Shown here: one piece after another, positions 53,877 through 64,000 of the stretch
How positions within the stretch are numbered: position 1 is the first letter of the stretch
Layout of the letters: every line of letters starts with the position of its first letter
Assembly (NCBI GenBank): GCA_023248495.1
Contig: JAHFEK010000006.1
Coordinates: 1-64,000 of the forward strand
DNA length: 64,000 nucleotides
Direction of reading: 5' to 3'
Source: Nitrospinales bacterium
GTDB lineage: Bacteria > Nitrospinota_A > UBA7883 > JACRGQ01
Program-made: the position numbers and the translations under genes
The notes under the pieces: model-generated
What the model was told of the DNA's origin: nothing
Seen by the model: the letters and a program-made list of their open reading frames with translations, nothing else
Database searches by the model: none

Positions 53877-53894
53877 AGCATGGAAGGGGTTGTT

Positions 53895-56249
53895 ATGAAC
53901 AGGCATATGAAACGGGTGGCGGTTATGCTCATGGCGGCCGCGGTGCTGCTTTTGTTCGCGGCATGCGGCGATGGCAAAAAGGGAAGTTCGGGAATGGGCA
54001 GCGGCATGGGAGTTACCGCGATCGGCACTACAACCTGTTTCAAGTGCCATGCGGATAATAACAATCCCGCCGGGCTTAAAAAGCCTTTCGGTGACACTCA
54101 AGCGGTTGCGGCCAATGGCTTGGGATGGCTGAATTCGCGCCACGCGAACAAAATCGGCGGGCCAAAATATGCCGATGCTGATTGGGTCTCCTCCTGCGCC
54201 TCTTGCCATGATCCAAACCATGAAGGTTCGGAAATTGCCAGTTTCTATTTTGACACCGGACTGAATACATTCGGCACCACCAACCGGCCGATTACCGGGT
54301 GCGAGTCGTGCCACGGCAATGGCGGCAATCATTATGGCGTGGGTCCGCTGGAATATAACAATCCCGGTGCCGCCCGCTGTGCCCTTTGCCACGGCGCTTC
54401 TTTTCCACATTCCGCTCTCGCCCGTTATAAGGAGAAGCTCGATATTTATGCCGACTACCTGGGTTCCGCTCACGCGGGATCGCGAAACGCCAACGTGCTG
54501 GTTACCGGCACGCCCGCCAATGTCACCGCCATCTGCTCACGCTGCCATACCGATGAAGGCGCGAGACGTTACATTAATACTTACGATGGCTCCTCCGGCG
54601 GCCAATCCAGCTATGCCGGTGCGGTCAACGCCCTCGAAGCCGCGGCCAGCATCAACGGCGCGTCGGCCATTGAATGCAAAACCTGCCATGACGCGCACAA
54701 TCCAAACCGGTTCCTGGCTGAGAACGGCCCGGCGGGCGCGGCATTAACGAATATCACCACCGGCGCGTGGTCGGCGGAATTCGCCACCTGCAACACCTGC
54801 CATCAATTGCTTAATGCCGACGGCACAAAAAACACCGCGGGCTACCATAATCCAGCGGTGAACACCGCGGCCGCCGCCGATAGCAGCCAGATCATCACCG
54901 ATACGCACTTTGCCACGAAAGGGAGCTGGACCGGCGCCGGCGGCGTCAATATAAACGCTATTGCCGGCTACTACATCGATTTCGCGGATAAGCGCGCCTG
55001 CACCAACTGCCACAATCCCCACCAAGCCAACGTGACCATCAACCGGCAATGGCACGCCTCGAAACACGGCGGCGATTTCACCGCCGCCGGGGCGTGGGCG
55101 CACTACGACTGGAAGGCAAGCAACCGGCAGGCCTGCCAACGGTGCCATACCACCAGCGGCGCGGTCACGTACCTTGATACCCTGATCGCGGGTGGAACCT
55201 ACGGCACCGGAAACATCGCGGCCACGGCCAATAGCACCGCGCCGGAAATGTTGCAATGCCAAGGCTGTCACACCGACAACAAAGGGACGCTGCGCAATCC
55301 CGGCGCTCTCACGGTGACGTATTACGGCGATGCCCAAGCGCTGGCCGATTTCGTTACCACCGCCGCGGTGCCGGTTACCTATCCCGACCTGGCCGGATCG
55401 AACATCTGCCTATCGTGTCACGTTGGCCGTGAAAGCGGTTCCAGCATAAAAGCCTCCACGAAGGCCTTCACCAACGGCACCAGTTTCATAAATTCCCACT
55501 ATTTGAGCGCCGGTGGCACGGTCTTCGCCCAAACGGGGTATACCTACTACACCGCCACCGCCACTTCCGATCCGTACGCCAACCCCAGCTTCTATAAGCA
55601 CGACACGATAGGGTTGGCGGCCAGCAAGAACATCGGCGGCAGCAACGGCCCCTGCGTTGGCTGCCACATGACTTCCACGGCGGATGCCGCCACCAACTAT
55701 GGCTCGCACCGTTTCCTCCCGGTGCAAAAAGATTCCGCCGGCGCCATCACCGCGATGACAACCACCGTCTGTGCCAACTGCCATGCCGGCAAGTACAGCA
55801 TGACCCCCGCCGAGTTGGAGCACCAGATGACCCTTTTCAACGCGGGCATTGGCGTGCTTAAAGATATGCTTGCCAATAGCGGGTTTTACTTCGTCAACAC
55901 TTCGCCGTATTTTTACACCACCGCCGCGGGAACAGCCGCGCAAACCGTGTGGGGAAGCAGCAAGGCCGTCGGCCAGCAGAATATGGGGGCCGCGTTCAAC
56001 TACAACCTGCTGGAGCATGACCCGGGGGCGTACGCCCACAACCGTTATTACGCCAAACGGCTGATCTACGATTCCATCGACTGGCTGGATGACAAAACGA
56101 TGAACCACAGCGTGCCGGGCACGTTGGATGGAATCGCCGCTTCATCCAGTTACAGCAGGGCGGATGCCATTGCGTACCTTATCGACAGCGCATCGGCAAC
56201 CGACCCGTTGACCGGCGTCGGCGCGGCGCAGACCGGCGGCAGGCCGTAA
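53895..56249 (+). CDS. Thirteen-heme c-type cytochrome, putative outer-membrane lipoprotein
   Basis: N-terminal MKRVAVMLMAAAVLLLFAAC; CXXCH x13 (CFKCH, CASCH, CESCH, CALCH, CSRCH, CKTCH, CNTCH, CTNCH, CQRCH, CQGCH, CLSCH, CVGCH, CANCH). Confidence 0.87.
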   Translation: MNRHMKRVAVMLMAAAVLLLFAACGDGKKGSSGMGSGMGVTAIGTTTCFKCHADNNNPAGLKKPFGDTQAVAANGLGWLNSRHANKIGGPKYADADWVSSCASCHDPNHEGSEIASFYFDTGLNTFGTTNRPITGCESCHGNGGNHYGVGPLEYNNPGAARCALCHGASFPHSALARYKEKLDIYADYLGSAHAGSRNANVLVTGTPANVTAICSRCHTDEGARRYINTYDGSSGGQSSYAGAVNALEAAASINGASAIECKTCHDAHNPNRFLAENGPAGAALTNITTGAWSAEFATCNTCHQLLNADGTKNTAGYHNPAVNTAAAADSSQIITDTHFATKGSWTGAGGVNINAIAGYYIDFADKRACTNCHNPHQANVTINRQWHASKHGGDFTAAGAWAHYDWKASNRQACQRCHTTSGAVTYLDTLIAGGTYGTGNIAATANSTAPEMLQCQGCHTDNKGTLRNPGALTVTYYGDAQALADFVTTAAVPVTYPDLAGSNICLSCHVGRESGSSIKASTKAFTNGTSFINSHYLSAGGTVFAQTGYTYYTATATSDPYANPSFYKHDTIGLAASKNIGGSNGPCVGCHMTSTADAATNYGSHRFLPVQKDSAGAITAMTTTVCANCHAGKYSMTPAELEHQMTLFNAGIGVLKDMLANSGFYFVNTSPYFYTTAAGTAAQTVWGSSKAVGQQNMGAAFNYNLLEHDPGAYAHNRYYAKRLIYDSIDWLDDKTMNHSVPGTLDGIAASSSYSRADAIAYLIDSASATDPLTGVGAAQTGGRP

Positions 56250-56300
56250 ACGAACGATGAAGCGCCAGCGGAAGGGCTTTTACTTTAAGGGAGGTGGAAG

Positions 56301-56687
56301 ATGAGCGAAATCATGGGACGAAAAGGGATAAGCCGGCTTTTGCCGCTGGCTCTGCTGACCGCCGTTCTCTTCACCGTCAGCCCCGTCATCGCCGAGGAGG
56401 ATGAAGATGAAAAACCGCCGGCCGACTTTGTGATGAAAGACACCGGCGAGAGCGACTGGGTCATGTTGAGCCATGCGAAACACGAGAAAAAAGTTCCTAA
56501 ATGCACCTCCTGCCACCCGAAAGTTTTCTCGTCCAAAATGGGGCGGACCAAGGAAACGAAGGGTGAACTGAAAATGACCGCGATGGAAAAAGGTGAATTC
56601 TGCGGCGCGTGCCACAACGGCAAAGATAATTTCGACGTTAAGGTGAAAGATGATTGCATAAAGTGCCACAGCGTTAAAAAGGAATAG
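56301..56687 (+). CDS. Triheme (c7-like) cytochrome
   Basis: Signal; CTSCH, CGACH, CIKCH with MEKGEFCGACHNGKD typical of c3/c7-family repeats. Confidence 0.85.
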   Translation: MSEIMGRKGISRLLPLALLTAVLFTVSPVIAEEDEDEKPPADFVMKDTGESDWVMLSHAKHEKKVPKCTSCHPKVFSSKMGRTKETKGELKMTAMEKGEFCGACHNGKDNFDVKVKDDCIKCHSVKKE

Positions 56688-56689
56688 CT

Positions 56690-58675
56690 TTATTGCGCCG
56701 CGGAAACGCCCGGCGGCGGGGCGATGCCGTCAAGTTTCTTTTTCAACTCCTTGGCGGCGCGTTTGATCGGCTTTGGATTATGCATGCCGTGGCTGCCGTC
56801 GTTTACGATCCCCAGGACAAATGTCCGGGCGTTGTCCACGGCGGCTTTCTGCTCCGCCGATAGATTCATTTTCACGGCGCGGGTGATGCCGGCGTTCAAA
56901 TCATCGATGAGGGCGTCGGTGTCTTTCACGCCTTTTCTCATTTTTTCCGCGTAGACGGGATCCTTGTGACAGGCGGCGCAATCCTCCGGCGTCACCTCTT
57001 TGCCGTTCATCTGGTGGCACTTGGTGCACGGGAAATCAAGGCTCTTCATGCTCGGCTCATCCACCGCGTTCCAGCGCCCCTGAATGATGTCGTTTTGCGG
57101 CGTATGGCACTCTTCGCACTTCTTCGTAATTTTTTGCTTGTGGTGGCACGGGGCGCATCCCGCTTTGTCGATGGTCAGCTCGGCATGTTTCACGGCGATG
57201 CTGTGGCACCGTTGACATTCAAATTTACCGCCGGTATGGGTCTTGTGATTGAACGGGAGACCGGCATAGAGCGGCGCCACTTTGTCCAGATAGAAGTGGC
57301 AGGTGAGGCAATCGGCGTTAGGTTTTCGTTCCTTCATGCCGGCGCGCGGCAGGATTAGGGAAATCTTGCCTTGTTTGCCGATGTTCGCGAGGGTGGCCCG
57401 CGCCGCTTCCAGAATCTCGTTCGCATAACGGACGTTATGCACGATGTTGCCGCGCGCGACGATGGCCAGATTCCCGCGCACGGCGGCCACTTCCGCTTTT
57501 GCCCCTTTACCGGCGAGATGCCCCTCCAGCGCCGCCGCCGCATTGTTGAGCGCGACGACCCGCTCTTCAGCGTCGTGTTGCCATGTTTTTATAAGCTTGT
57601 TAAACCCCCGCCCGTGGCAGGTATCGCAGCTTTTACCGCTGGCATAGTAAGTGCCGGGGCCTTTTTCCCCCGCCGCTGTCAGACCATGGGAAATGTGGCA
57701 GCCCCGGCAGTTCAGCCCAATCTCGTACATCCGGTTCGGCAGGGGGGGTACGCCGCTGGCCCCCTCGCCGGTGAATAGGGTGATCGTGGCGTTATGGTGC
57801 CGCGGGTGGCAGGTTTGGCAATCCGCCACCGTTGTGGCGTCGCCGGGGCGGAGCTTGTGTTCAATGGCGAGATGGCACCGCTGGCATTCGATTTTGTTTT
57901 CGGAAATATGCTTTGCGTGCATAAGGCTGGTGTTTTTGAATTGGCCGAGCCGTTCGTTATCCCAGTGGCACGCGAAACAGTTTTGCTTGGCAACGGGGCC
58001 GGTTCCCTGCACGGTGTGGCTGTGGCAGGTCTGGCAGGCCAGTTTCTCGCGCAGCACGATGCTATGGTCATAGCGAAGCTCGCCGGCCTTTGAGCGGCGC
58101 AGCATCACGTCGCGGTCGTGACAAACGGTGCATTCGGCCTGTTTCGGCGTGACGCCCCCCTCTCCCGCTTTAAAGTGGCAAAGGTAACAGGCGGTCGCCG
58201 TGACGGTTATATGCAGCCCCTGCACAATCTGCGAGTGGCAACTGGTGCAGCGGAGCTTTTTGCCCCCCTTCAAATCTCCCAAGTGCGGCGTGTGGTCGAA
58301 TACTACCCCTTCTTTAAAGTTCACCCTCCCCCGAAGGAGGCGTGTTTCGTGACAGCCGGTCCGGAGGCAGCTTTCATCCGGGATCTCGGCCCACGGACGT
58401 GATTTTTTATATGTACGCGAAGTGTATTTCACCAATTGCACCAAGCCGTTCAGTTTGCCGGCGATGGCCCCTTTGAGACCCGGGGCGAAGTGGCATTCGA
58501 TGCATTCGACCTTATTGTGCGATGAATTCCGCCAACTGTCGTAAAACGGCTGCATGTAGTGGCATGTAACGCAAAAACCGGAACGGGACGTGAACATGGC
58601 CGTGCCAGCCGTGAGAATCGCAAGTCCGACGAGCGAAAGGACGGCTATGGTGAGCGCCCTTTTGAGCTTACCCAT
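56690..58675 (-). CDS. NapC/NirT-like N-terminally anchored multiheme cytochrome (17 CXXCH plus one CX4CH)
   Basis: N-terminal TM VLSLVGLAILTAGTAMFTS then GFCVTCHYMQPFYDSWRNSSHNKVECIECHFAPG; 17 CXXCH counted plus CLRTGCH. Confidence 0.88.
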   Translation of the reverse strand: MGKLKRALTIAVLSLVGLAILTAGTAMFTSRSGFCVTCHYMQPFYDSWRNSSHNKVECIECHFAPGLKGAIAGKLNGLVQLVKYTSRTYKKSRPWAEIPDESCLRTGCHETRLLRGRVNFKEGVVFDHTPHLGDLKGGKKLRCTSCHSQIVQGLHITVTATACYLCHFKAGEGGVTPKQAECTVCHDRDVMLRRSKAGELRYDHSIVLREKLACQTCHSHTVQGTGPVAKQNCFACHWDNERLGQFKNTSLMHAKHISENKIECQRCHLAIEHKLRPGDATTVADCQTCHPRHHNATITLFTGEGASGVPPLPNRMYEIGLNCRGCHISHGLTAAGEKGPGTYYASGKSCDTCHGRGFNKLIKTWQHDAEERVVALNNAAAALEGHLAGKGAKAEVAAVRGNLAIVARGNIVHNVRYANEILEAARATLANIGKQGKISLILPRAGMKERKPNADCLTCHFYLDKVAPLYAGLPFNHKTHTGGKFECQRCHSIAVKHAELTIDKAGCAPCHHKQKITKKCEECHTPQNDIIQGRWNAVDEPSMKSLDFPCTKCHQMNGKEVTPEDCAACHKDPVYAEKMRKGVKDTDALIDDLNAGITRAVKMNLSAEQKAAVDNARTFVLGIVNDGSHGMHNPKPIKRAAKELKKKLDGIAPPPGVSAAQ

Positions 58676-58823: not shown

Positions 58824-58855
58824 CGAAGAATCCCTTTCCGGAAAGGGATTCTTCG
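58824..58855. repeat. 32-bp perfect palindrome, core of a dispersed palindromic repeat (flank ctcagaatgacat)
   Basis: CGAAGAATCCCTTTCC|GGAAAGGGATTCTTCG. Confidence 0.7.
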
Positions 58856-58913: not shown

Positions 58914-60332
58914 CTATTCGACCAAGTATCCTTGCAGCCAAAGAACGCCGGTGATGCATTTTCCCAATTCCAACATGCAGTCAGCGTCCAATGCCGAATC
59001 CGCGATATAAAGAAAAACATTGAAATCATAATCGTCAGGGCGCATCAGTGTCGCTTTTAACCGGCTTAGGTCAATTCCCCGAACATGTATCCTCTTAATC
59101 TCATCCACCTTGACCATAAAGTCATAATCATCACTTCCAAGGTCTTCCCGCTGGAAAAGGATTGCCGCCCCATCAAGAGATATTTTTATTGGTTCCAAGC
59201 TATCAGAAACATCTGGACGGCCCGCCTGACGCATAGCCTTTAACTTTTCAGGATCATCAATCACAACCTCATTGTGTTTGGGGTTGCCAGCCATGTAAAC
59301 CAAGCCCGACAACATGAACTTTGCTTTCATTCCTGGATGATACTTATCCCGGTTCTTATAGTAATGCGTATCAAAGAAGGAGATGGGAGCGCAACCGGCA
59401 ATGGTGCCTAAAATAGTCCCTATGCTCACCACATGTTGAACGAAGTTTAGCTGTTTGTTGCTGGTGGTTGCCCAAAAGTCGTCCCGCTCGTAAGTCATTT
59501 TGTCCTGCTGTTTCTCGCCGTTCTCCCCCACGATAGTGACGCTGCTCTTTTTGCCGAAGGGTGGATTCGTCAGCACCATATCCACCTCTTCAGCTACTTT
59601 GCCGCGCAGGGCGTCTTTGCTTTCGACCGGGCTTTCGTCGCCACCGATGCCGTGCAGGTAGAGATTCATGGCGCAAAGGCGAACCACGCTATCCACTATG
59701 TCCGCGCCGCGCAGGGCTTTCTCTTTAAGGTGGCGCGCGGCCCCGTGATCCAGCTTTTGGTGCTTCTCGATGTAATCGTAAGCGGCAAGGAGGAACCCGC
59801 CGGTACCGCAGGCCGGGTCAGCGATTACCATTCCGGTCTTGGGGCGCATTACCTCCACCATCGCGCGGATGAGCGGGCGCGGCGTGAAGTACTGTCCCGC
59901 CCCGCCTTTTACGTCGGATGCGTTTTTTTCCAGCAATCCTTCGTAGATGTCACCTTTAACGTCGGTGCTCATGGAGGACCAGTCTTCCTTGCCGATCATG
60001 TTTATCAGGTGGGCGAGCTTGGCGGGGTCGGATATCTTGTTCTGCGCTTTTTTGAAGATGACGCCGAGCAAGCCGGGATACTTGCCCAACGCTTCAAGAA
60101 TGTGGCGGTACTGGATTTCCAATGCGTCGCCGTCCAGCTTGGCAAGGGCCTTCCATTGGTATTCTTTCTGGATTCTTACATCCTTCCCCTGCTCCATCCG
60201 CTCCTGCGCCATTTTGAGGAAGATGAGGAAGGTTATCTGCTCAACGTAATCGCCATAGGAAAGGCCGTCGTCGCGCATGACGTGAGCGTAGTTCCAAACT
60301 TTCTGGACAATGGCGGCGCTGTTTTCGGTCAT
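58914..60332 (-). CDS. hsdM: Type I R-M methyltransferase subunit HsdM, C-terminal third replaced by unrelated sequence (chimeric)
   Basis: GGAGQYFTPRPLIRAMVEVM, ADPACGTGGFLLAAYDYI, MVLTNPPFGKKS up to QLNFVQHV; from ~59429 leftward the sequence (VSIGTILGTIAGCAPISFFDTHYYKNRDK...) is not HsdM-like. Confidence 0.82.
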   Translation of the reverse strand: MTENSAAIVQKVWNYAHVMRDDGLSYGDYVEQITFLIFLKMAQERMEQGKDVRIQKEYQWKALAKLDGDALEIQYRHILEALGKYPGLLGVIFKKAQNKISDPAKLAHLINMIGKEDWSSMSTDVKGDIYEGLLEKNASDVKGGAGQYFTPRPLIRAMVEVMRPKTGMVIADPACGTGGFLLAAYDYIEKHQKLDHGAARHLKEKALRGADIVDSVVRLCAMNLYLHGIGGDESPVESKDALRGKVAEEVDMVLTNPPFGKKSSVTIVGENGEKQQDKMTYERDDFWATTSNKQLNFVQHVVSIGTILGTIAGCAPISFFDTHYYKNRDKYHPGMKAKFMLSGLVYMAGNPKHNEVVIDDPEKLKAMRQAGRPDVSDSLEPIKISLDGAAILFQREDLGSDDYDFMVKVDEIKRIHVRGIDLSRLKATLMRPDDYDFNVFLYIADSALDADCMLELGKCITGVLWLQGYLVE

Positions 60333-60376: not shown

Positions 60377-60721
60377 TCAGGAAGGAAACTCGGCTTTAAG
60401 GATACGTTCGACCTTATCTTGCAGGGCTGGCGCTTCCACCGTAGCGGCACTCCAGACGAGAACCCAGTCCACTGAAAAATAGGCGTGTACAACATAGTTG
60501 CGGAAATCCGTGATTTTTCGCCACGGGATATCAGGATATTTTTCTTTGACCCCTTGCGGCAATTTGGAGGCCGCTTCCCCTATAACTATCAGTTTCATCA
60601 ATACGGCGCTTTTTACAACGTCGCTATCCATGAACTTTTCAAAAGTAACACCTTCAATAAAAGAGCGTATCGCCTTTGCGGCTTCCACTATATCCGCAAG
60701 ATAAAGCTTTTCACGCCGCAT
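60377..60721 (-). CDS. HepT-like (DUF86) HEPN RNase toxin
   Basis: DIVEAAKAIRSFIEGV...DFRNYVVHAYFSVDWVLVW with HEPN RX4-6H motif. Confidence 0.87.
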   Translation of the reverse strand: MRREKLYLADIVEAAKAIRSFIEGVTFEKFMDSDVVKSAVLMKLIVIGEAASKLPQGVKEKYPDIPWRKITDFRNYVVHAYFSVDWVLVWSAATVEAPALQDKVERILKAEFPS

Positions 60722-61013
60722 AAAAAACTTTCGAGCTGTTTAATACCTCATCCCGGATGATGGGATTAAGCCCCCTTTTGGAAACGAGGTCCACTTTTCG
60801 GCCGAGAATATCAGCAAGCTCGTGCTGCATTCCGATGAATTCCAAAAGCCCTATTTTTGCATCCGGCATGAACTCCACAAGAAAGTCGATGTCGCTTTGA
60901 TCGGTAAAATCGTCCCGCACGGCGGAACCGAAAACGGAAAGCTCCCGCACCTGATACCGTTTGCATATCCCGGCGATGGCCTCTTTCGGCAATTCAATTT
61001 TTATTGCGTTCAT
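60711..61013 (-). CDS. MntA-like nucleotidyltransferase antitoxin
   Basis: RELSVFGSAVRDDFTDQSDIDFLVEFMPDAKIGLLEFIGMQHELADILGRKVDLVSKRGL. Confidence 0.9.
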   Translation of the reverse strand: MNAIKIELPKEAIAGICKRYQVRELSVFGSAVRDDFTDQSDIDFLVEFMPDAKIGLLEFIGMQHELADILGRKVDLVSKRGLNPIIRDEVLNSSKVFYAA

Positions 61014-61027
61014 TTTTATACTTTCCT

Positions 61028-62587
61028 TTACCTTACGCCCATTTTAGCCTGTTTTCGTGGTTTGGCGGAATGGGACTCACGGTTCCTCTTTAAATCCCGT
61101 CCTTTCTCTCTTTCGGCTTGGATACGCTTGAGGAGTTCGCTGGCCGGTTCGTCGTCCGGGTTTTGCGGCACCAGCTTCCCCTCGAACGCCTTTTTCAGGA
61201 TGGACTGGCGGAGGCTCTTAATAATTGGCTCAACCTTAAAAACACTTTGCTCAATGTGCTTTATTCTGCTCAGAAGTTCCTCGTATTCTTCTATCAGGAC
61301 ATGTTGTTCATGCAGTGGGGGCAACGCGACTGGTATTTTCCTTATGATACCTAGATTTAAAATTTCCATCGTCCCTCCGTGCGAGGCAATCTTGAACAAA
61401 TGTTTTACTTGTGGTGCCTGCAAATATATTTGCACATACTTGGATAAAACGAGCTTGTTGTCTAAAGACACTTTCACAAGGCGTGGATTTATTATGCCCG
61501 GCTCACAATCTTTAGGGAGGATTAATACCCTTCCAATAGTTCCAACCAAACTAATCAACATATCGCCCGGTTTGATCGCGCAGCTTTCAAGTTCTTCATA
61601 CAACTTTCTATCAACGTAATAATCACCATATCTATGGTCGTTCCTAATAACTTGCTCTTGACCATATATTTTGTAACCAGCCTTGGAATACATCGACTTC
61701 TTAAGAGAAGAACCAAATGGTCCGGCTTTTAGGGAATTGTCTTCATCGGTCGCTAGTATCTCAAGGTTTATCCATACCCACCCCTCGGGCAATTCGGGGA
61801 GGGATGAAGTATCAGGGGAAGCGGGTTCCTGGTATTTTTCTTTCCATTTGTCGTCTTTGGGGGTGATGCCTTTGCGTTTGAAGTCGGCCAGCTGGGCTTC
61901 TTCCCACTTTTTGCGGCGTTCTTTCAGGATGCGGTCGAGAAGTTTTGAGGCGGGTTCCAGCTTGGCTTTGTTCTTTTCGCGCCACTTTTTGGTGAGTTCA
62001 CCGGTGACGGCGGCCTTTAGCACAGATTGGCGGTACTGCTTTAAAAGCGCCTTCGCTTTTTCCAGCGCCTTCACCCCCGCATCCAGATTGCTGAAAAGCT
62101 CCTCAATCTTCGCCACAATCCTCTTTTGCCCATTGAGCGGCGGAAGAGGCAAGGTGATCGTTCTTAGTTTTGATGCATTAACATTCTGCAAAGCTATGCC
62201 ACTGCTGAGTTCAGAAATATTTTTCCAATATCGCGAACTTTGTAAAAAATAAGCTAAGTAGCTTGGATTAATCAGAGGACGAAATCGAATTAAGTAAGAT
62301 GCAAATACAGATTTGGCGGGATTCTTGATTAATGAACTTACACCAATTGACCCAGCTCTGGAAATTACAATATCTCCATCGTTCAAAAGATACTTATTGA
62401 GATTATAAGGCTCCTCGTGGCAGAAAGGAACATCGTTCCAATTTATTGGCCCCGAAGTAATATCTGTGGTTCTTAGAAAGTAGATTTTGCCCGTTTTGGA
62501 TGCTTTGGTTGTCCATCCATACTGTGGATATGCACATACCTCATCAAGAGTGCTCTCAACCCACCCCTTCGGCAGTTCCTCGCTCAC
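61028..62587 (-). CDS. hsdS: Type I R-M specificity subunit HsdS
   Basis: Two target-recognition domains: ELPKGWVESTLDEVC...IVAKIEELFSNLDAGVKALEKAK and PELPEGWVWINLEIL...PLHEQHVLIEEYEELLSRI; GTG start. Confidence 0.93.
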   Translation of the reverse strand: MSEELPKGWVESTLDEVCAYPQYGWTTKASKTGKIYFLRTTDITSGPINWNDVPFCHEEPYNLNKYLLNDGDIVISRAGSIGVSSLIKNPAKSVFASYLIRFRPLINPSYLAYFLQSSRYWKNISELSSGIALQNVNASKLRTITLPLPPLNGQKRIVAKIEELFSNLDAGVKALEKAKALLKQYRQSVLKAAVTGELTKKWREKNKAKLEPASKLLDRILKERRKKWEEAQLADFKRKGITPKDDKWKEKYQEPASPDTSSLPELPEGWVWINLEILATDEDNSLKAGPFGSSLKKSMYSKAGYKIYGQEQVIRNDHRYGDYYVDRKLYEELESCAIKPGDMLISLVGTIGRVLILPKDCEPGIINPRLVKVSLDNKLVLSKYVQIYLQAPQVKHLFKIASHGGTMEILNLGIIRKIPVALPPLHEQHVLIEEYEELLSRIKHIEQSVFKVEPIIKSLRQSILKKAFEGKLVPQNPDDEPASELLKRIQAEREKGRDLKRNRESHSAKPRKQAKMGVR

Positions 62588-62690: not shown

Positions 62691-62765
62691 CTCGCGCTGG
62701 GCCGTTGCGTAGTCCCCTCCTTCGGCCTTTTCGACCCACTCTTTAACGAGAGGCTTCAGCTTCAT
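62649..62765 (-). pseudogene. Truncated HEPN domain gene (N-terminal ~30 aa retained)
   Basis: MKLKPLVKEWVEKAEGGDYATAQRELR|ITLRASLGPTP*; HEPN-like start truncated far short of a full domain. Confidence 0.7.
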
Positions 62766-63075
62766 GGAGCGTTTTGCCCTTGTTGATGATGTCGGAAATA
62801 AAAAAATCATCCCATGCCAGCCGTTGCCGCACCTGATCGGGAGACCGTACAAGAATATCCACCGGAAGGGTGGTGCCGACCCGCGCCAGTATTTCACACG
62901 CCTTCCGGGCCGGTTTCCCTTTGAAAGGCATGACGACAAGCAAATCAACATCTGAAGCATCGGTTGGCGTGCCCGTGGCATATGAACCAAAGAGAATTAT
63001 TCTGTCGGGATTATATGCCTCGGCGATACGCCGGGAAAGATTGCGGATTTCCGCGATAGTTATCTTTTTTCCCAT
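62743..63075 (-). CDS. Nucleotidyltransferase domain protein (MNT-type)
   Basis: AYNPDRIILFGSYATGTPTDASDVDLLVVMPFKGKPARKACEILARVGTTLPVDILVRSPDQVRQRL. Confidence 0.88.
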   Translation of the reverse strand: MGKKITIAEIRNLSRRIAEAYNPDRIILFGSYATGTPTDASDVDLLVVMPFKGKPARKACEILARVGTTLPVDILVRSPDQVRQRLAWDDFFISDIINKGKTLHEAEASR

Positions 63076-63195
63076 ACCTAAAACCCCTTCGCCATCCGCC
63101 CGAAAACCCGTCAATCATCCTAATCTGTTACCGTCTTAACTAGCTTGAGTATAACATTTCCCGGATACGGTTTGATTCCCGGAAATCACCGCGAA

Positions 63196-64000
63196 TCACG
63201 CCACCAAAGCTCCGTTAAGGTCATCTATGATTTGGTCGGTTTCGGGACCGAACAGTTTTAGCGCCTTCCCCAGTCCGCCGTGTGCGGTGAAAGGGGCCAG
63301 ATCAAAATCGTCCCGCTCCACCGATCCGGAAAGGGAAATACGCTCTTTTATCATCCGCAGCCACTCCATCTGTTCCGCCGTAAAGCTCTTGCCGTTCCGC
63401 TGTTGCTGGGCCAGCCATTCATCAAAACGGCGTTCCACAATATCGGGAAACGGCTCCAGCACGTCCGCCGCCCCCGCAGCAAAACGGATGAGCGAAATTA
63501 TATTGGTCAACACCGTGGCGGGGCTGGCGTTGCGCACCCGGCTTTTTTCCAGATTGGCATAGGCGCTCCAGACCCGTTCCGGAGCCAGATTGTATGGAGG
63601 ATCTTGCAGTTCATCGGCAAGTTTCTTTATCGCATCGTGGGTAATGTGGCGTTTGGCGTAGGTCTGGCTGTAGATAATCTGCAACGCTGTAATCTCGTCC
63701 TTGTGCTTCTCTATAAATTGGCGGAAATTTTGAATTATCTGGCGTGCCTTTTCTTTATCATGCCCCACTTCTATGAGCGTATCTATAGTGCCGTGGTCTA
63801 TGGTCTGCTCGTTCTCGCGCCTCATCGATTCCAGCAGGTCGCGCACATCGGGGCGGTTGAATGGCTCCACGGCGGCATCGGCCAGTTTTATGCGGGCCTT
63901 CTCGCATTCCTCCGGTTTTGGTTGCTCTTTGGCGTTGGTGGCTTTAGCGGCATCCAGCGCCGCATCGGGATTGAGCGAGTGGATAATATCGCCGGTGATC
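63196..64000 (-). CDS. hsdR: Type I R-M restriction subunit HsdR, C-terminal part (runs off the window)
   Basis: Frame open to the window edge; ...HITHDAIKKLADELQDPPYNLAPERVWSAYANLEKSRVRNASPATVLTNIISLIRFA... resembles an EcoEI-type HsdR C-terminal domain. Confidence 0.85.
   Translation of the reverse strand, partial: ITGDIIHSLNPDAALDAAKATNAKEQPKPEECEKARIKLADAAVEPFNRPDVRDLLESMRRENEQTIDHGTIDTLIEVGHDKEKARQIIQNFRQFIEKHKDEITALQIIYSQTYAKRHITHDAIKKLADELQDPPYNLAPERVWSAYANLEKSRVRNASPATVLTNIISLIRFAAGAADVLEPFPDIVERRFDEWLAQQQRNGKSFTAEQMEWLRMIKERISLSGSVERDDFDLAPFTAHGGLGKALKLFGPETDQIIDDLNGALVA

Follow-up and report, generated by a model that had tools for sequence, protein, structure and literature searches.

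An open reading frame joining a truncated HsdM to the C-terminal half of an uncharacterised protein family in a type I restriction-modification locus

The restriction locus and its chimeric frame

The window analysed here, a 64,000-nucleotide stretch opening a contig of a Nitrospinales bacterium, closes with a type I restriction-modification operon whose features are collected in Table 1. A multihaem cytochrome c-type cluster (53880-58675; 789, 128 and 661 aa) adjoins this operon. On the minus strand, 58914..60332 reads, exactly as a sequence-only reading of the window had stated, as one uninterrupted open reading frame (ORF) of 472 aa, of which residues 1-303 are identifiable as HsdM and residues from about 304 to 472 are not. 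The operon context of this ORF is kept, with both hsdS and hsdR open. In L002, the corresponding locus of G005, a genome belonging to the same bacterial family, the order is hsdR, MNT, HEPN, hsdS, MNT, HEPN, hsdM, and the window operon is of the same kind.

Table 1. Features of the chimeric ORF and its surroundings, with members of the tail family
Feature	Position	Strand	Evidence or remark
Palindromic dispersed repeat GAAGAATCCCTTTCCGGAAAGGGATTCTTC	58824-58855	none	25 genome places
Tail: C-terminal half of uncharacterised family, natural stop included	58914..59423	-	tblastn, profile, alignments, GC3
Junction zone, residues 304-316 (IGTILGTIAGCAP)	59385..59423	-	DNA comparison with L002 and L003; protein alignments
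HsdM part, residues 1-303 (HsdM_N, DPACGTGG, NPPF)	59424..60332	-	Pfam; 90% identity to L002 HsdM
HepT-like (HEPN) gene	60377..60721	-	Pfam HepT-like, E 1.6e-25
MNT-type nucleotidyltransferase, HepT partner	60711..61013	-	Pfam NTP_transf_2, E 5.6e-14
hsdS, 519 aa, intact	61028..62587	-	Pfam Methylase_S, two stretches; PADLOC Specificity_I
HEPN remnant, 38 aa	62649..62765	-	128 aa in L002
Second MNT-type nucleotidyltransferase	62743..63114	-	Pfam NTP_transf_2, E 6e-11; 81% to L002
hsdR, 3' part in window	63196..64000	-	Pfam EcoEI_R_C; full 928 aa intact on contig
Tail-family members			WP_165107723.1 (Caballeronia plasmid), QCP17949.1 (Acinetobacter), G141, G234, G363, G402-G405, G407-G409

Unambiguous HsdM identity ends at residue 303/304 and unambiguous tail-family identity begins at ISFFDT (residue 317), while DNA identity with relatives persists through GTGGTGAGCAT and is then lost. 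The intervening residues 304-316 bear a faint likeness to HsdM (GT.A...P), which we considered and set aside as a continuation of the homology; it would place the joint no more than 13 residues away. Third-position GC content (GC3) falls at the joint from 73% in the HsdM part to 49% in the tail, values that may be compared with 72% in the neighbouring cytochrome genes and 48% in hsdS and hepT. The proposal that this ORF is a chimera of recombinational origin is supported by the abrupt end of HsdM sequence, the derivation of the tail from another protein family and the composition shift at the joint. For microhomology at the hsdM joint, the searches turned up no closely related, unbroken version of the tail-family gene to serve as a comparison.

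The open stretch of 169 codons past the joint was equalled in none of 5000 shuffles of the tail DNA, for which the median was 11 codons. Together with the family match that runs to the C-terminal end, this result marks the tail as coding sequence and not a random extension of the frame. A second instance of the HsdM-tail architecture, named beforehand as the observation that would speak against a chimera, was found in none of the contig collection, 385 genomes, viral contigs, phages or plasmids.

Two incomplete halves

The HsdM half carries a full HsdM_N domain (PF12161; E 4.3e-12, profile positions 2-135 of 135), the AdoMet motif DPACGTGGF and the catalytic motif NPPFGKK. Its N6_Mtase domain (PF02384; E 8e-39) is incomplete, covering profile positions 2-179 of 311 versus 2-298 of 311 in the intact L002 protein, such that about 40% of the profile is lost. 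The best HsdM-side matches end at about residues 303-317, including those to PDB entry 2okc (E 4.5e-78) and the PADLOC type I methyltransferase profile (E 2e-109), both of which stop at residue 304. The intact HsdM of L002 has 484 aa and is 90% identical to the ORF, with an alignment extending to residue 316-317, of which the part up to 303 is unambiguous; the HsdM of L003 (genome G008) is 86% identical. G005 and G008 are same-family genomes, both recorded as Nitrospinota MAGs. As the sequence-only reading had recognised, the usual HsdM continuation, GGTAAVVVPDNVLFEGGAGE...LPTGIFYAQGVKANVIFF, is missing from the ORF, yet it is found in L002.

Set against known type I HsdM proteins (the EcoKI M subunit, 2ar0/2y7c, and the protein of 2okc), the window ORF shares HsdM_N, DPACGTGG, NPPF and the hsdS/hsdR operon setting but lacks the last approximately 181 residues, or roughly the final 40% of the protein. 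These residues would complete the catalytic fold with its last strands and supply the C-terminal helices for HsdS binding. The lost C-terminus was not found elsewhere in the assembly, although this is a draft of 93 contigs and 88% completeness, and the absence is not final. The search itself performs as intended, since a full-length relative used as query recovers the hsdM genes of G005 and G008 as well as that of the window. In T. tengcongensis, removal of only the last 21, 30 or 40 residues of HsdM abolished co-purification with HsdS (PMC3047542), and loss of 181 residues should accordingly prevent M2S assembly. With the fold left incomplete and the HsdS-binding helices gone, the product should not form M2S, methylate DNA or support HsdR.

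The sequence-only reading did not recognise the tail, which has no match in Pfam, NCBIfam, PHROG or PADLOC; among PDB sequences the best hit has an E value of 1.2. Searches for it in viral contigs and phages, and with the tail alone in the genome contig collection, returned nothing, nor did a single-sequence search of 97 relatives. An AlphaFold2 single-sequence model of the tail had a mean pLDDT of 37 and was unusable for fold search. Homologues were reached by tblastn against plasmids, which gave one match, a hypothetical Caballeronia protein of 330 aa to which the tail corresponds in the C-terminal half (E 7e-8; 28% identity over 178 aligned columns). With the Caballeronia protein as query, a 313-aa homologue was found in Acinetobacter between a YaiI/YqxD gene and serC, and a profile search added members in G234, G363 and G141 and then in seven more genomes of the phylum of G141.

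Every family member that we read is encoded by a gene of its own, with a product of about 274-355 aa, and none of the Caballeronia, Acinetobacter, G141, G234 and G363 loci has restriction genes as neighbours. The tail matches the C-terminal half of WP_165107723.1 and QCP17949.1: its alignment begins at ISFFDTHYY and continues to the last residue, its stop is at most a few residues away from those of the family, and it contains the conserved C-terminal block (FFD, Y, LWLQGYL) and retains every invariant column of a six-sequence family alignment. In contrast to these proteins, the window copy lacks the N-terminal half of about 150 residues (FPF...NR.EA), with HsdM in its place, and the cut falls within a conserved block. 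The family is scattered in its occurrence (L007:1120-2070, L009:1486-2310, L004:7563-8555, L005:4959-5900), and on the Caballeronia plasmid its gene adjoins one for a 569-aa hypothetical protein (L004:8587-10296) that has no plasmid relatives and no Pfam match.

Decay around the fusion and the dispersed palindrome

The chimeric ORF is not the only altered gene in the operon. The HEPN remnant between hsdR and hsdS consists of its first approximately 26 codons joined to its last approximately 12 at a shared CGCGAG, the internal deletion thus lying between 6-bp CGCGAG repeats. The MNT gene at 62743-63114 no longer has an intact HEPN partner there. In L003, hsdM (L003:5001-6392, equivalent to G008:C53:1924-3315) is independently broken, and we take it to be a pseudogene: of its two TGA codons one replaces the Cys of DPACGTGG and the other a Trp, and 16 aa are missing between two DVKG repeats. 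Genomes of the same genus as the window have the flanking cytochrome gene, the conserved one of 661 aa (81-87% identity), and no hsd locus of the window type. This distribution points to acquisition by horizontal transfer and later loss. The locus is therefore probably a horizontally acquired one in decay.

A perfect 32-bp palindrome does lie close to the ORF, 58 bp beyond its stop, in line with the approximately 60 bp first reported, but its suggested role as a recombination scar does not hold. Allowing up to 3 mismatches, it is found 25 times in the genome, against 0 for a reversed control, and makes up the central part of a dispersed repeat whose flanks are of the CAGAATGACA type; we therefore rejected any connection with the joint. 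A 62-bp relative of this repeat is present in the sibling genome G002 (L063:12651-12712).

Origin of the fusion and its meaning

The analysis shows the two parental sequences, where they meet, what has been lost, the deletion in the adjacent HEPN gene and the open hsdS and hsdR, and we regard the ORF as most probably a gene fusion generated by deletion or rearrangement in a type I restriction-modification locus undergoing decay. In the simplest case, the ancestor would have held a complete hsdM of about 484 codons and, downstream in the same direction, a complete gene of the roughly 300-aa family. Illegitimate recombination may then have taken approximately 181 codons from the end of hsdM and approximately 150 from the start of the tail-family gene, joining two remnants in frame by chance. 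The AdoMet and NPPF motifs would have been retained, whereas the last part of the methyltransferase fold would have been removed together with the HsdS-docking helices. No genome that we found has an intact tail-family gene adjoining hsdM, and the former neighbourhood of the parents is accordingly inferred, as is their fusion by one single deletion. What speaks against this reading is the frame, uninterrupted in both halves as that of a long-dead gene would not be; the event would have to be recent, or the ORF under some selection.

The main rival to a deletion or rearrangement is an assembly or binning artefact in which two genomic places, hsdM and the end of a tail-family gene, were joined at about 59424. 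The fragmented and incomplete state of the draft, the coincidence of the composition change with the joint and the same-genus genomes that have the cytochrome flank without a close hsdM or tail-family gene would all fit such a join. We nevertheless consider it unlikely: neither the leftover HsdM C-terminus nor the N-terminal half of a tail-family gene turned up elsewhere in the assembly, the joint lies outside the dispersed repeat, with the palindrome about 570 bp away, the joined frame is exactly open, and a second internal deletion has arisen independently within this locus.

Functional domain capture, also raised by the sequence-only reading, would have the tail substitute for the HsdM C-terminus and direct the methyltransferase to another partner or target. 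An uninterrupted in-frame fusion, a tail that keeps its family's invariant columns and open hsdS and hsdR genes are what such a capture might leave. However, HsdM has lost part of its catalytic fold and not merely a docking tail, the cut runs through a conserved block of the tail family, the architecture occurs in no other genome searched, and known C-terminal deletions of HsdM lose HsdS binding (PMC3047542). With both halves incomplete and a neighbouring gene decaying, we find domain capture very improbable, and a working chimeric methyltransferase subunit, its partner or target changed by an uncharacterised domain in place of the HsdM C-terminus, is harder still to credit. That the tail is made as a separate short protein from GTG codons 301 and 302, which are indeed in frame at the joint as had been pointed out, is scarcely believable, as no Shine-Dalgarno-like sequence precedes them and the product would still be a truncated family member without the N-terminal half present in every other.

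The nearest formal parallel is the Type IMS construct, an HsdM-HsdS fusion derived from EcoKI, in which HsdM likewise runs in frame into another polypeptide (PMC3510504). There, HsdM is complete and its partner is HsdS, whereas in the window HsdM is truncated and its partner unrelated. The ORF is most likely a broken gene and not a new enzyme.

It is ordinary for restriction genes to decay through deletion, and the biological weight of this case is small. It does carry a warning, in that annotation would label an ORF of this kind HsdM and count it as an active system, and it reveals a scattered, uncharacterised protein family without a Pfam or NCBIfam profile.
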